Positions 1,711 through 8,474 of a stretch of DNA of 8,474 nt are shown piece after piece; the stretch's first letter is position 1; each line of letters opens with the position of its first letter. The notes beneath the pieces were generated by a model. The model was given only the letters and a program-made list of their open reading frames with translations, was not told the origin of the DNA and did no database searches. Origin of the DNA: Planctomycetota bacterium. Lineage in GTDB: Bacteria; Planctomycetota; Planctomycetia; Pirellulales; Pirellulaceae. The DNA lies in NCBI GenBank assembly GCA_019347795.1, contig JAHWKS010000174.1, positions 1 through 8,474 on the forward strand, in the 5' to 3' direction. The position numbers and the translations under genes were made by a program.

Positions 1711-2205
1711 CTATCGCGGCTGGGCCGGCCGGGCCGGCGGCGCCGACTCCAGAGATGCGGCGGCAGGATTGCCGAACGCCTTCTCCGCAATTTCGTCGTA
1801 GTGGGTCTGCATCTCTCCCAGATACGTCTCCCAACGGGCGGCGCTCCACAACTCCAAATGGTCCCGCACTCCCAGCAGCACGACGTCCTTCGCCAGTCCC
1901 GCCCACTGGGCCAGCTCCGGGGGAATCCGGAGCCGCCCCTGCCGGTCGATCTCCGCCGGTTGGGCCTGAGCGTAAAACAGCCGACTGAAGGCCCGCACGT
2001 CGCGACCCGCCGGTGAGGCCTGGGCCAATTGGTCGCCGATGCCGGAAAGTGCGTCCTCCATGTAGAGCGAGAGCGATCCATCAGTTCCGGGCGCGATGTA
2101 AACAACCGACTTCTGGGGGTGTCCCAACGCATCACGGAGGAGTTTGGGAATGGCCAAGCGGTGCTTTTCGTCGAGCGTTCGCGGATAGGCGCCCGTCAGG
2201 AGCAT
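1711..2205 (-). CDS. mraZ: Transcriptional regulator MraZ
   Basis: MraZ is a DNA-binding, ring-forming regulator of the SpoVT/AbrB fold. In other bacteria it sits first in the division and cell-wall (dcw) cluster and regulates its own promoter. The 164-residue product has two tandem AbrB-like repeats. The first contains LDEKHRLAIPK (11-21), where the usual DxKGR core has His in place of Gly. The second contains EIDRQGRLRIPPELAQW (85-101) with the canonical DxxGR. KDVVLLGVRDHLELWS (106-121) follows, also typical. An Ala/Pro-rich tail (about 145-164) extends beyond the usual roughly 140-150 residues. The start MLLTGAYPRTLD matches the family start, and GGTGAG just upstream is a weak ribosome-binding candidate. 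The gene is not followed by rsmH, ftsL or pbp genes: downstream lie only a terminator and convergent hisH. The identity is secure; the target genes here are unknown. Confidence 0.95.
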   Translation of the reverse strand: MLLTGAYPRTLDEKHRLAIPKLLRDALGHPQKSVVYIAPGTDGSLSLYMEDALSGIGDQLAQASPAGRDVRAFSRLFYAQAQPAEIDRQGRLRIPPELAQWAGLAKDVVLLGVRDHLELWSAARWETYLGEMQTHYDEIAEKAFGNPAAASLESAPPARPAQPR

Positions 2206-2211
2206 CGCTCA

Positions 2212-2268
2212 CCCATTGGTTTCCCACTGCGTCCCACAGGACTCCAAAGATACCCACTGGCCCTCCCA
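2212..2268 (-). promoter_or_regulatory. MraZ operator: array of TGGG boxes at about 10-bp spacing
   Basis: On the minus strand TGGG occurs at 2268-2265, 2256-2253, 2236-2233, 2226-2223 and 2215-2212. A degenerate TGGA at 2246-2243 fills the phase gap. Start-to-start distances are 12, 10, 10, 10 and 11 bp, close to one helical turn. Most copies read GTGGGA or GTGGGT. In Escherichia coli, MraZ binds direct TGGGN repeats with 5-nt spacers in its own promoter, so the motif and period both match the known site. Here the array starts right after the -35, runs through the spacer and -10, and ends 6 bp before the start codon. Autoregulation by the adjacent mraZ product is the natural inference. Confidence 0.75.
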
Positions 2269-2274
2269 CGTCAA
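2247..2274 (-). promoter_or_regulatory. Sigma70-type promoter of mraZ
   Basis: On the minus strand, TTGACG (2274-2269, five of six matches to the -35 consensus) is separated by 16 bp from TATCTT (2252-2247, four of six matches to the -10 consensus). This would place the transcription start near 2240, about 35 bp before the mraZ ATG. TGGG boxes occupy the spacer and the transcribed leader, which fits repression by MraZ. The call rests on motif match and position only. Confidence 0.6.
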
Positions 2275-6848: not shown

Positions 6849-6869
6849 CCGGCTGTATCAATCAGCCGG
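6849..6869 (-). repeat. Hairpin overlapping the kinase stop codon
   Basis: CCGGCTG (6849-6855) pairs with CAGCCGG (6863-6869) around a 7-nt loop, so the hairpin includes the TGA of the kinase gene (6864-6862). On the minus strand the following bases are CGCGTCGCGAATTTTCGG, with only a short T-run about 10 nt away, so any termination would be weak. The rest of the gap to the PilZ gene has a -10-like TAAAAT (6775-6770) on the minus strand but no matching -35. Independent expression of the PilZ gene is therefore unresolved. Confidence 0.35.
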
Positions 6870-8474
6870 GCCGGGCCTCCCGCCAAAAGCGGCGGTAGAG
6901 GAGCGGCAGCTCGGGGCCGCGCTCCTCGTGGGAGTGCCCGTTAGCCTTGATCCGCCAGTGATACCAGGAACCGACTCGCCAGATTTCGATCGTGGCGCCT
7001 CCTCGGGCGTAACCGAATACGCCCGGCGCGACGAGATGGCTCTGCGACGTTCCCCCCTTTGGTTTGATCGGGTGTAGTTCAAGATTAAGCCGCGCCAGCT
7101 TCTGCTGCTCGCGATTCAGGATCGCATCAACCTCCGTCCATAAATCGTTCTCCAAGTCCGCCGCCTCATCGGGGAAAGGCTCAATGCGAATCGTCCGGCG
7201 TCCTTGCTCGTCGGTCGTCCGACGCAGGTGCTTTTCCTCCAGGTCCAAGTACCGGCGAAACGCCTTCTGCAGCGCCGCGTTGACCGCTTCCACCTGAGCT
7301 GGCTCGAAGTCCCAAGTCCAGCCGGAAAGCTGGGGTCCCGCCTCCGTCATTTCCCATCCGGTATGGTAGGAAAGACGGCCGAGGCGTTCCGCCACTCGCT
7401 GCCGAACTTCGGCGAGTTGCTGGGGCGTGAGTGGGCGGCGCTGTTCTTCCTGACTATTGCGTGGCGAGACAGTCTCGGGCGCCGCGGCCGCGTCCTGAAT
7501 TTCCCAATTCGGATTGAGCCTCGGTTGAACTCCGTAGTACAGATACGCGGCCGCGATCGGCGCGGCCAGCAGCAGGCCCAACAGTACGGCCACGATGACG
7601 ATGGGCGCCGCCGGCCAGGGCTTCGCGGCCGATGTGCCGGGTTTCTCCTCGATCCGTTTCAGCTTCGGGTCCTGATCTCCCGGGCTCTGGAAGATGCGCA
7701 GGATGCCGGCGACCGCCGCTCCCACGATCGTCGCCGCGGCCGCCAACAGGCTCAGCAGCACGAAGATTTGCAAAGCCGCTTGCCCCCAGTTTCCGAAGAA
7801 CGCGACGGCTACAGGATCGCGCACGTTGGCGCCCCAGGCGTGCAGGCCGCTGGCGCCGCCGCCGAGGGCAAGGATGCCGACGGCGCCGCCTCCCAACGCA
7901 ATCACGCCCACGGCCCAGCCGCCCAGGGCCAGGAAGCCGATCGCCGCGCCGCCGATCGCCACGAGCAGTCCCAGGCTGAGTCCTCCGAAGGTGACTCCGC
8001 CGACGGCGCAGCCGCCGAAGGCGAACAATCCGACGGCGCACCCGCCCAATGCGAACCCGCCGATGGCGACATCGCCGATCGCGATCCACCCCTTCGCCAC
8101 GCGCTTCTTCATCGTTTTGGGATCGTAGCCTCGGACAATATGCACCAACGGCCACCCGAGAAAAGTTCTCGAGGAGCGGTATTCGTATCCGAGAACGCGC
8201 TGGAGATGGACGGGCATTTGCCCTTCAGCAAGGCCGCAGATCGACTCCACATCGGTCTTCACGTCGCTGGCGTGCTGGTAGCGTCGCTCCGGCTCGGCCT
8301 CCAAGGCCCGCAGCACAACGTCGTCCAGCCGCACGTCGATCTGCACCTTCTTTGACGGCGGCGCGAAGCGGCCCACCGGCAACTGCCCCGTGAGCAGTTC
8401 GTAGAATACGACGCCGAGCGAAAAGATGTCGGCCCGGTGGTCCACCGTCCCCGCGCCCGCCAGTTGCTCGGGCG
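6862..8474 (-). CDS. Membrane-associated Ser/Thr protein kinase, N-terminus outside window
   Basis: This is the C-terminal part of a Hanks-type Ser/Thr kinase. The frame is open to the right edge: the first full codons (8472-8446) read PEQLAGAGT, the subdomain VIII xPE motif, so the GTG at 8445 is an internal Val, not the start. Numbering from that Val, DHRADIFSLGVVFYELLTG (2-20) is subdomain IX, and RLDDVVLRALEAEPERRYQHA (39-59) ends the kinase lobe with the conserved subdomain XI Arg. Then come a linker with GYEYRSSRTFLGWPLVHI (86-103), a Gly/Ala pentad repeat (121-206), a membrane segment at about 222-250, a basic linker, a second membrane segment at about 280-304, and a C-terminal domain (340-527) I cannot assign. 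The last ends in a Trp/Tyr-rich strand region (IEIWRVGSWYHWRI, 486-499). The ATP-binding loop, catalytic Lys and HRD Asp lie outside the window, so activity cannot be judged. The PilZ gene follows after 131 bp. Confidence 0.9.
   Translation of the reverse strand, partial: PEQLAGAGTVDHRADIFSLGVVFYELLTGQLPVGRFAPPSKKVQIDVRLDDVVLRALEAEPERRYQHASDVKTDVESICGLAEGQMPVHLQRVLGYEYRSSRTFLGWPLVHIVRGYDPKTMKKRVAKGWIAIGDVAIGGFALGGCAVGLFAFGGCAVGGVTFGGLSLGLLVAIGGAAIGFLALGGWAVGVIALGGGAVGILALGGGASGLHAWGANVRDPVAVAFFGNWGQAALQIFVLLSLLAAAATIVGAAVAGILRIFQSPGDQDPKLKRIEEKPGTSAAKPWPAAPIVIVAVLLGLLLAAPIAAAYLYYGVQPRLNPNWEIQDAAAAPETVSPRNSQEEQRRPLTPQQLAEVRQRVAERLGRLSYHTGWEMTEAGPQLSGWTWDFEPAQVEAVNAALQKAFRRYLDLEEKHLRRTTDEQGRRTIRIEPFPDEAADLENDLWTEVDAILNREQQKLARLNLELHPIKPKGGTSQSHLVAPGVFGYARGGATIEIWRVGSWYHWRIKANGHSHEERGPELPLLYRRFWREARPG
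7828..8085 (-). repeat. Coding repeat: 17 pentads of x-A-h-G-x inside the kinase
   Basis: Residues 121-206 of the kinase fragment (numbered from the Val at 8445) break into 17 five-residue units: IAIGD, VAIGG, FALGG, CAVGL, FAFGG, CAVGG, VTFGG, LSLGL, then one extra Leu (161), then VAIGG, AAIGF, LALGG, WAVGV, IALGG, GAVGI, LALGG, GASGL, HAWGA. Position 2 is nearly always Ala, position 3 a bulky hydrophobic residue and position 4 always Gly. Pentads tend to pair into decads, in which hAhGG is followed by xAhGx. The single-residue insertion splits the array into halves of 8 and 9 units. The region is wholly hydrophobic and uncharged apart from Asp125. It could form membrane-embedded helices with Gly packing, or a beta-solenoid. 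Confidence 0.85.

Follow-up and report, generated by a model that had tools for sequence, protein, structure and literature searches.

The boxes at positions 2212 to 2256 of the window, by which we mean the whole stretch of 8,474 nucleotides of planctomycete DNA analysed here, very probably form a conserved operator, to which the MraZ protein of the adjoining gene would bind to repress its own promoter. Such an operator is known from other bacteria; here it is kept among relatives whose genomes gave no ftsZ gene in our search.

The box array of the mraZ promoter

On the minus strand, which is the mraZ coding strand, TGGG starts at 2268, 2256, 2236, 2226 and 2215 and TGGA at 2246, with start-to-start spacings of 12, 10, 10, 10 and 11 bp; the box positions and spacings given by the original prediction were exact when this strand was read again. 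The elements follow each other in the order TTGACG, TGGG, TGGG, TATCTT, TGGA, three TGGG, six bases and the ATG. The −35 hexamer TTGACG (2269-2274, minus strand, as for all the elements that follow) is invariant in 10 aligned promoters, and is separated by a 16-bp spacer from the −10 hexamer TATCTT (2247-2252), to which both the promoter scan and the alignment point. Indeed, in an independent promoter scan TTGACG-16-TATCTT was one of two sites in 1400-2450 (9/12 matches), while shuffles averaged 0.1 sites. Counting from the −10 hexamer places the predicted transcription start at 2240. Relative to this position, the boxes lie at −28 (TGGG, 2265-2268, 12 bp from the next box), at −16 between the −35 and −10 elements (TGGG, 2253-2256), at −6 (a degenerate TGGA, 2243-2246), at +4 (TGGG, 2233-2236), at +14 (TGGG, 2223-2226) and at +25, shortly before the start codon (TGGG, 2212-2215). 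The −6 box, TGGA in the window, reads TGGG in the nearest relative (L180), whose MraZ protein is 73% identical to that of the window.

None of 20,000 dinucleotide shuffles made from the 200 bp before mraZ contained a six-box TGG[GA] chain at 9-12 bp (the largest chain had five boxes), which argues that the array is not due to chance. With strict TGGG boxes, the longest run in the window is of three boxes and was equalled by 57 of 20,000 shuffles; the strength of the array in this one sequence thus depends on counting TGGA as a box. No second TGG[GA] chain of at least four boxes was found on either strand of the window.

The adjoining gene (1711-2205, minus strand, ATG at 2205-2203) encodes a protein of 164 aa, the predicted autorepressor, which is MraZ by TIGR00242, by PF02381 and by its fold. 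It scores 100.7 bits against the TIGR00242 equivalog profile (cut-off 98.35), and PF02381 matches it in two stretches, as expected for tandem half-domains. D11, R15, D86 and R90, one D...R pair per half-domain, are invariant across 17 aligned sequences, that of the window included. The AlphaFold model of the monomer (mean pLDDT 88.5) matches the M. genitalium MraZ structures 9qlg and 9sz7, with TM scores of 0.71/0.83 and an E value of 1.2e-14 against 9qlg_A. Only one PF02381 gene was counted in the window's genome.

The mraZ gene is probably monocistronic, since the next gene on its 3′ side is the convergent hisH. Between these two genes, at 1464-1510, we noticed an inverted repeat, rich in GC and with runs of A and of T (AACCCGCCCC ... 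GGGGCGGGTT), which by eye would be a two-way terminator; it is missing from the results of our scan, for which its loop is too long. At the other end of the window (6862-8472, minus strand) lies a protein kinase fragment (Pkinase 19.6 bits, below cut-off), followed by a long series of glycine-rich repeats of the AIGGxALGG type.

Conservation of the array and its anchoring to the promoter

A contig scan confirmed 565 relatives, and our counts use the best 80, nearly all of them from planctomycetes. At least three boxes at 9-11 bp were found upstream of 62 of these 80 orthologues (63/81 with the window) as against 28 of 8,100 shuffles, and chains of at least four boxes in 39 of the 81 upstream regions as against none of 8,100. 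Fewer than three boxes in register were seen for the other 18 orthologues. The distances between pairs of boxes in the 81 regions peak at 10 (176), 20 (122) and 30 bp (57); at 9 and 11 bp there are 6 and 10 pairs respectively, and spacing classes away from 10 bp (5-7 to 7-9 and 11-13 to 14-16) occurred in zero to two regions. Missing TGGG boxes in orthologous upstream regions had been proposed as a refutation of the original prediction; what we observe is conservation at a 10-bp phase. A second set of 40 genomes, which overlaps the first, gave at least three boxes in 36 and at least four in 21; these counts do not represent independent events, as the loci share ancestry and the 80 were selected as the best of 565.

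A rule blind to the boxes called promoters in 73 of the 81 regions (TTGAC-like −35, with a 16-bp spacer in all but one). Relative to these promoters the boxes fall, within one base, into the registers −6, +4, +14 and +24, with 39 to 53 boxes each: 53 at −7 to −5, 52 at +3 to +5, 53 at +13 to +15 and 39 at +23 to +25. A fifth register, −16/−17, holds a box in 22 of the 73 promoters, including that of the window. The distance from the −10 element to the ATG ranges from 32 to 122 bp with the registers unchanged, so that the boxes are locked to the −10 element and not to the start codon, even where the latter is more than 100 bp away (L199, L206 and L239, for example). When the window was aligned with nine relatives taken from the 80, the invariant columns were almost exclusively those of TTGACG, the −10 element, the TGG cores (among them those at +4 and +14) and the ATG.

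The outermost box is another matter: the −28 box is absent from all nine aligned relatives, yet 9 of the 73 promoters, the window's included, have a box at −28 to −25, which in three of them overlaps the −35 element itself (L248, L249 and L252). It is therefore probably, but not certainly, incidental. An array extending over the whole promoter had been predicted, which is only partly right: the conserved core consists of four registers, of which the one at −6 is degenerate in the window, and the claim does not carry over to the −28 box.

Two further arrays deserve mention. In L218, seven boxes stand in a row within 70 bp upstream of mraZ, several of them in near-identical TGTGGGGATT units, which may reflect a recent growth of the operator by 10-bp units. 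A clean array (GTGGGAACAAGTGGGAACGAGTGGG) lies at G062:C1:7282297-7282321; the genome concerned is absent from the list of genomes with a MraZ match.

The box array stays with mraZ and not with rsmH

A search for ftsZ (tubulin-family genes), positive in 13 of 14 control genomes, had no match in any of 55 genomes, the window's own (G000, 72% complete) among them; rsmH was present in all 55. In the window's genome rsmH is on another contig than mraZ, so mraZ does not stand as the leader of a dcw cluster followed by rsmH, an arrangement that is a feature of the family's context and not a requirement for belonging to the protein family. We compared 41 genomes with MraZ-A, as we call the family of the window's MraZ; they are a part of those with a strong MraZ-A match. 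In 27 of them rsmH directly follows mraZ, in one it precedes it, and in 13 it lies elsewhere, among them that of the window and one (G196) in which mraZ and rsmH are both at contig ends and may be neighbours. For the 80 orthologues, rsmH was downstream in 48, upstream in one, not found within the flank in 23 and undecidable in 8, and arrays were present in 35 of the 48 with rsmH downstream and in 18 of the 23 without rsmH found adjacent. The reverse of the usual order, with rsmH upstream of mraZ on the same strand, is seen in L204 (G188:C2:559981-561907).

We also considered that a detached rsmH might have kept the operator, and rejected this: for none of 20 rsmH loci away from mraZ did the 260 bp in front of the gene contain a pair of boxes (TGGG or GTGG) at 9-11 bp. 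Eleven of these 20 genomes have MraZ-A elsewhere and nine are without a close MraZ-A match. The operator thus travels with mraZ, not with rsmH. Since it is kept where no ftsZ was found and where rsmH has moved, the conserved function looks like mraZ autoregulation and not like the control of division genes.

In four genomes, the gene right after rsmH encodes a putative membrane MraZ fusion (L066:4877-6238, L065:5255-6106 and L070:4629-5939 on the plus strand, L061:1753-3075 on the minus strand; family f17). These proteins begin, as judged by eye, with a hydrophobic stretch and end in a MraZ domain that follows a long linker. PF02381 is over its cut-off in three of the four, with 17.8 bits in L070. 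From their sequences, the MraZ domain of these fusions may lie outside the cytoplasm with its DNA-binding motifs eroded. A LysM domain, plausible by eye, was not retained, as Pfam gives none.

Comparison with known MraZ operators

In the E. coli K-12 genome, TGGG stands at −43, −33 and −23 from the mraZ ATG, each time after a G. E. coli MraZ reportedly binds the repeats before mraZ, in work attributed to Eraso, 2014. The motif and period that the original prediction took to be common to E. coli and the window can thus be read directly from the K-12 genome as three GTGGG every 10 bp. In both bacteria GTGGG direct repeats with a period of exactly 10 bp lie on the mraZ coding strand and end shortly before the ATG; in E. 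coli three boxes are clear and an AGGGG stands close to the fourth register, whereas the window has the four core registers and the −16 box, and in E. coli mraZ is followed by rsmH and ftsL, whereas in the window it stands apart. Passages of PMC8475190 relate, second-hand, the binding of E. coli MraZ to the mraZ-promoter repeats, describe MraZ as repressing its own gene cluster both in E. coli and in M. genitalium, where ftsZ is part of it, and place the sole M. genitalium motif in the mraZ promoter.

In B. cenocepacia, as presented in PMC7761207, a DNA fragment that carries four 10-bp repeats across the start site is shifted by MraZ. Here too four repeats of 10-bp period lie downstream of the −10 element and overlap the predicted start, but the B. 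cenocepacia site heads a dcw operon and its binding was shown, that of the window array being predicted. In Mycoplasma, direct repeats centred on GTG again follow a 10-bp period and the protein fold is the same, with a repeat unit of AAAGTGK instead of GTGGG; the M. gallisepticum site is given as (AAAGTGKN3)3 in an excerpt of PMC5282649. The titles of PDB entries 9r4j and 9sz7 describe M. genitalium MraZ with its promoter, in 9sz7 with a "4 box promoter".

The identity of the protein, the E. coli and B. cenocepacia repeats and the M. genitalium structures together lead us to assign the window array to MraZ operators of the known kind: its direct GTGGG/GTG repeats, with their 10-bp period, lie beside the mraZ promoter, and its registers (−6, +4, +14 and +24) run from the −10 element across the predicted start site. 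Judged by its letters, it is such an operator with an additional −16 box common to part of the relatives. Among the papers listed in a literature search, mostly open-access ones and thus weak evidence of absence, there was neither a planctomycete MraZ operator nor a palindromic one.

Search for a regulon

The proposal that clusters of phased boxes elsewhere would reveal a regulon was not borne out, as strict arrays outside mraZ were at about control level, although weak sites would escape such a scan. In the window's own genome, TGGGN6TGGGN6TGGG with at most one mismatch gave 20 matches against 8 in the reversed control. Two of these are the mraZ array; the remaining 18, which exceed the control (18 vs 8), lie in stop-free frames of at least 753 nt and appear coding, and none was shown to front a gene. 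Over 248 genomes, three GTGGG in phase gave 17 matches, 7 at mraZ and 10 elsewhere, against 23 in the reversed control, hence no sign of a regulon. Four GTGG in the 41 MraZ-A genomes gave 8 matches, 7 of them at mraZ, against 2 in the control, with a pattern that misses all but 7 of these 41 promoters of mraZ. The MraZ circuit looks local, as in M. genitalium.

A second MraZ family with paired palindromes

A second family, MraZ-B, shares 22-30% identity with the window MraZ (11 members aligned) and was listed in 130 of 297 genomes at 128 bits or more. PF02381 matches it in the five members scanned, and it falls below the TIGR00242 cut-off in the two members scanned. Its modelled fold is that of MraZ, as the models match 9qlg. 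It has in common with the window MraZ both this fold and the GTGGG half-site, but its half-sites are inverted (TGGGN7CCCA), in two palindromes 41-42 bp apart, whereas those of the window are direct repeats.

Twenty MraZ-B test loci (L073-L092) had been taken before the palindrome motif was known. All 20 contain the paired palindromes, with scores of 14-16 out of 16; shuffles reach this in 2 of 1,000 cases, and at the most favourable of ten other spacings one of the 20 loci does. In four of them (L081, L089, L090 and L091) the 17 bp that separate the −35 hexamer (TTGATT/TTGAAA) from the −10 hexamer (TAGGAT/TAGAAT/TACAAT) are, by eye, filled by the second palindrome. Furthermore, we scanned the 297 genomes for two TGGGN7CCCA with 25-29 bases between them (a period of 40-44 bp) and found such pairs in 83, against four with the reversed control. 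Among the 75 pairs listed, from 69 genomes, 66 sit 44-278 bp upstream of MraZ-B, all with a spacing of 41 or 42 bp, and nine lie elsewhere. The scan gave no such pair in the window's genome. These sequences suggest that MraZ-B is likely an autorepressor acting on paired palindromes, which would probably represent a new operator layout; that MraZ-B bridges the two palindromes is a guess.

Alternative explanations

Could the G-tracts act by themselves? With GTGGG repeated every 10 bp, the GGG tracts are separated by loops of 7 nt, and for S. aureus a G-quadruplex lying downstream of the mraZ promoter, with motifs conserved in other bacteria, has been proposed to control expression (PMC11796246). 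We hold a quadruplex in the mraZ promoter or leader to be very unlikely here, as the motif of four G3 tracts with loops of 1-7 nt is met by 5 of the 63 arrays, the window's not being one of them; moreover, 72 of 232 boxes lack the third G with the 10-bp phase kept (the TGG itself being fixed by the definition of a box), and the MraZ-B promoters arrange an equal half-site as a palindrome. The G-tracts are better explained by the MraZ box, which offers a simpler reading of G-rich mraZ promoters described as quadruplexes. An action of the repeats in the mRNA leader, through translation, a Shine-Dalgarno-like GGUGA or RNA structure, could account for the last box sitting at the expected position of a ribosome-binding site, where GTGGTGA recurs in some relatives. 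Nevertheless, the −6 and −16 boxes would not be transcribed, the array of promoters with a long leader keeps to the −10 element and not to the ATG, and Rfam gives no match at the gathering threshold in 1400-2450, so we give this possibility very little weight.

The −16 box inside the promoter spacer would also suit another regulator, or a MraZ acting here as an activator, and the evidence on MraZ comes from bacteria other than planctomycetes. MraZ could indeed activate, or act on other genes. Yet the half-site and period are those of E. coli mraZ and precede mraZ in 62 of 80 orthologues, and strict arrays elsewhere stay near the control level, both of which speak against another regulator; we find this alternative as a whole quite improbable. 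A simple tandem duplication or a chance run of TGGG, for which one might invoke the 10-bp units repeated almost exactly in L218, is hardly credible: the spacers of the window are unrelated to each other, Tandem Repeats Finder finds nothing in 2150-2350, and the box registers recur over 73 promoters. This conservation speaks against such an origin for the core; for the single −28 box it may hold.

Proposed mechanism and implications

Autorepression by MraZ being the preferred reading, one subunit of a MraZ ring would hold each GTGGG half-site, the 10-bp period placing the half-sites on one face of the helix. As the core boxes span the −10 element and the predicted start, to about +28, a bound ring would block promoter opening or the escape of RNA polymerase. 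We consider that the boxes, their period, their anchoring to the promoter, their conservation and the detachment from rsmH can be taken as established; binding, occupancy by a ring, and repression and its strength we infer, the promoter block in particular by analogy with the E. coli, B. cenocepacia and M. genitalium systems. Since mraZ lies apart from rsmH in this genome, plain negative feedback on mraZ itself is predicted.

Considering both families, MraZ-A using GTGGG in direct repeats and MraZ-B in palindromes, the MraZ ring would accept half-sites in tandem or inverted. We thus favour, with some reserve, a picture in which planctomycetes devoid of ftsZ have two MraZ circuits built on one half-site, MraZ-A on 10-bp direct repeats and MraZ-B on palindromes paired at four helical turns (41-42 bp), and in which an ancestral division regulator would now be a self-contained loop, independent of ftsZ and in many cases of rsmH as well.

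In conclusion, the planctomycete MraZ operator becomes a testable unit of four boxes at −6, +4, +14 and +24. If confirmed, the MraZ-B operators would show that one ring-type repressor family uses one half-site in two geometries.
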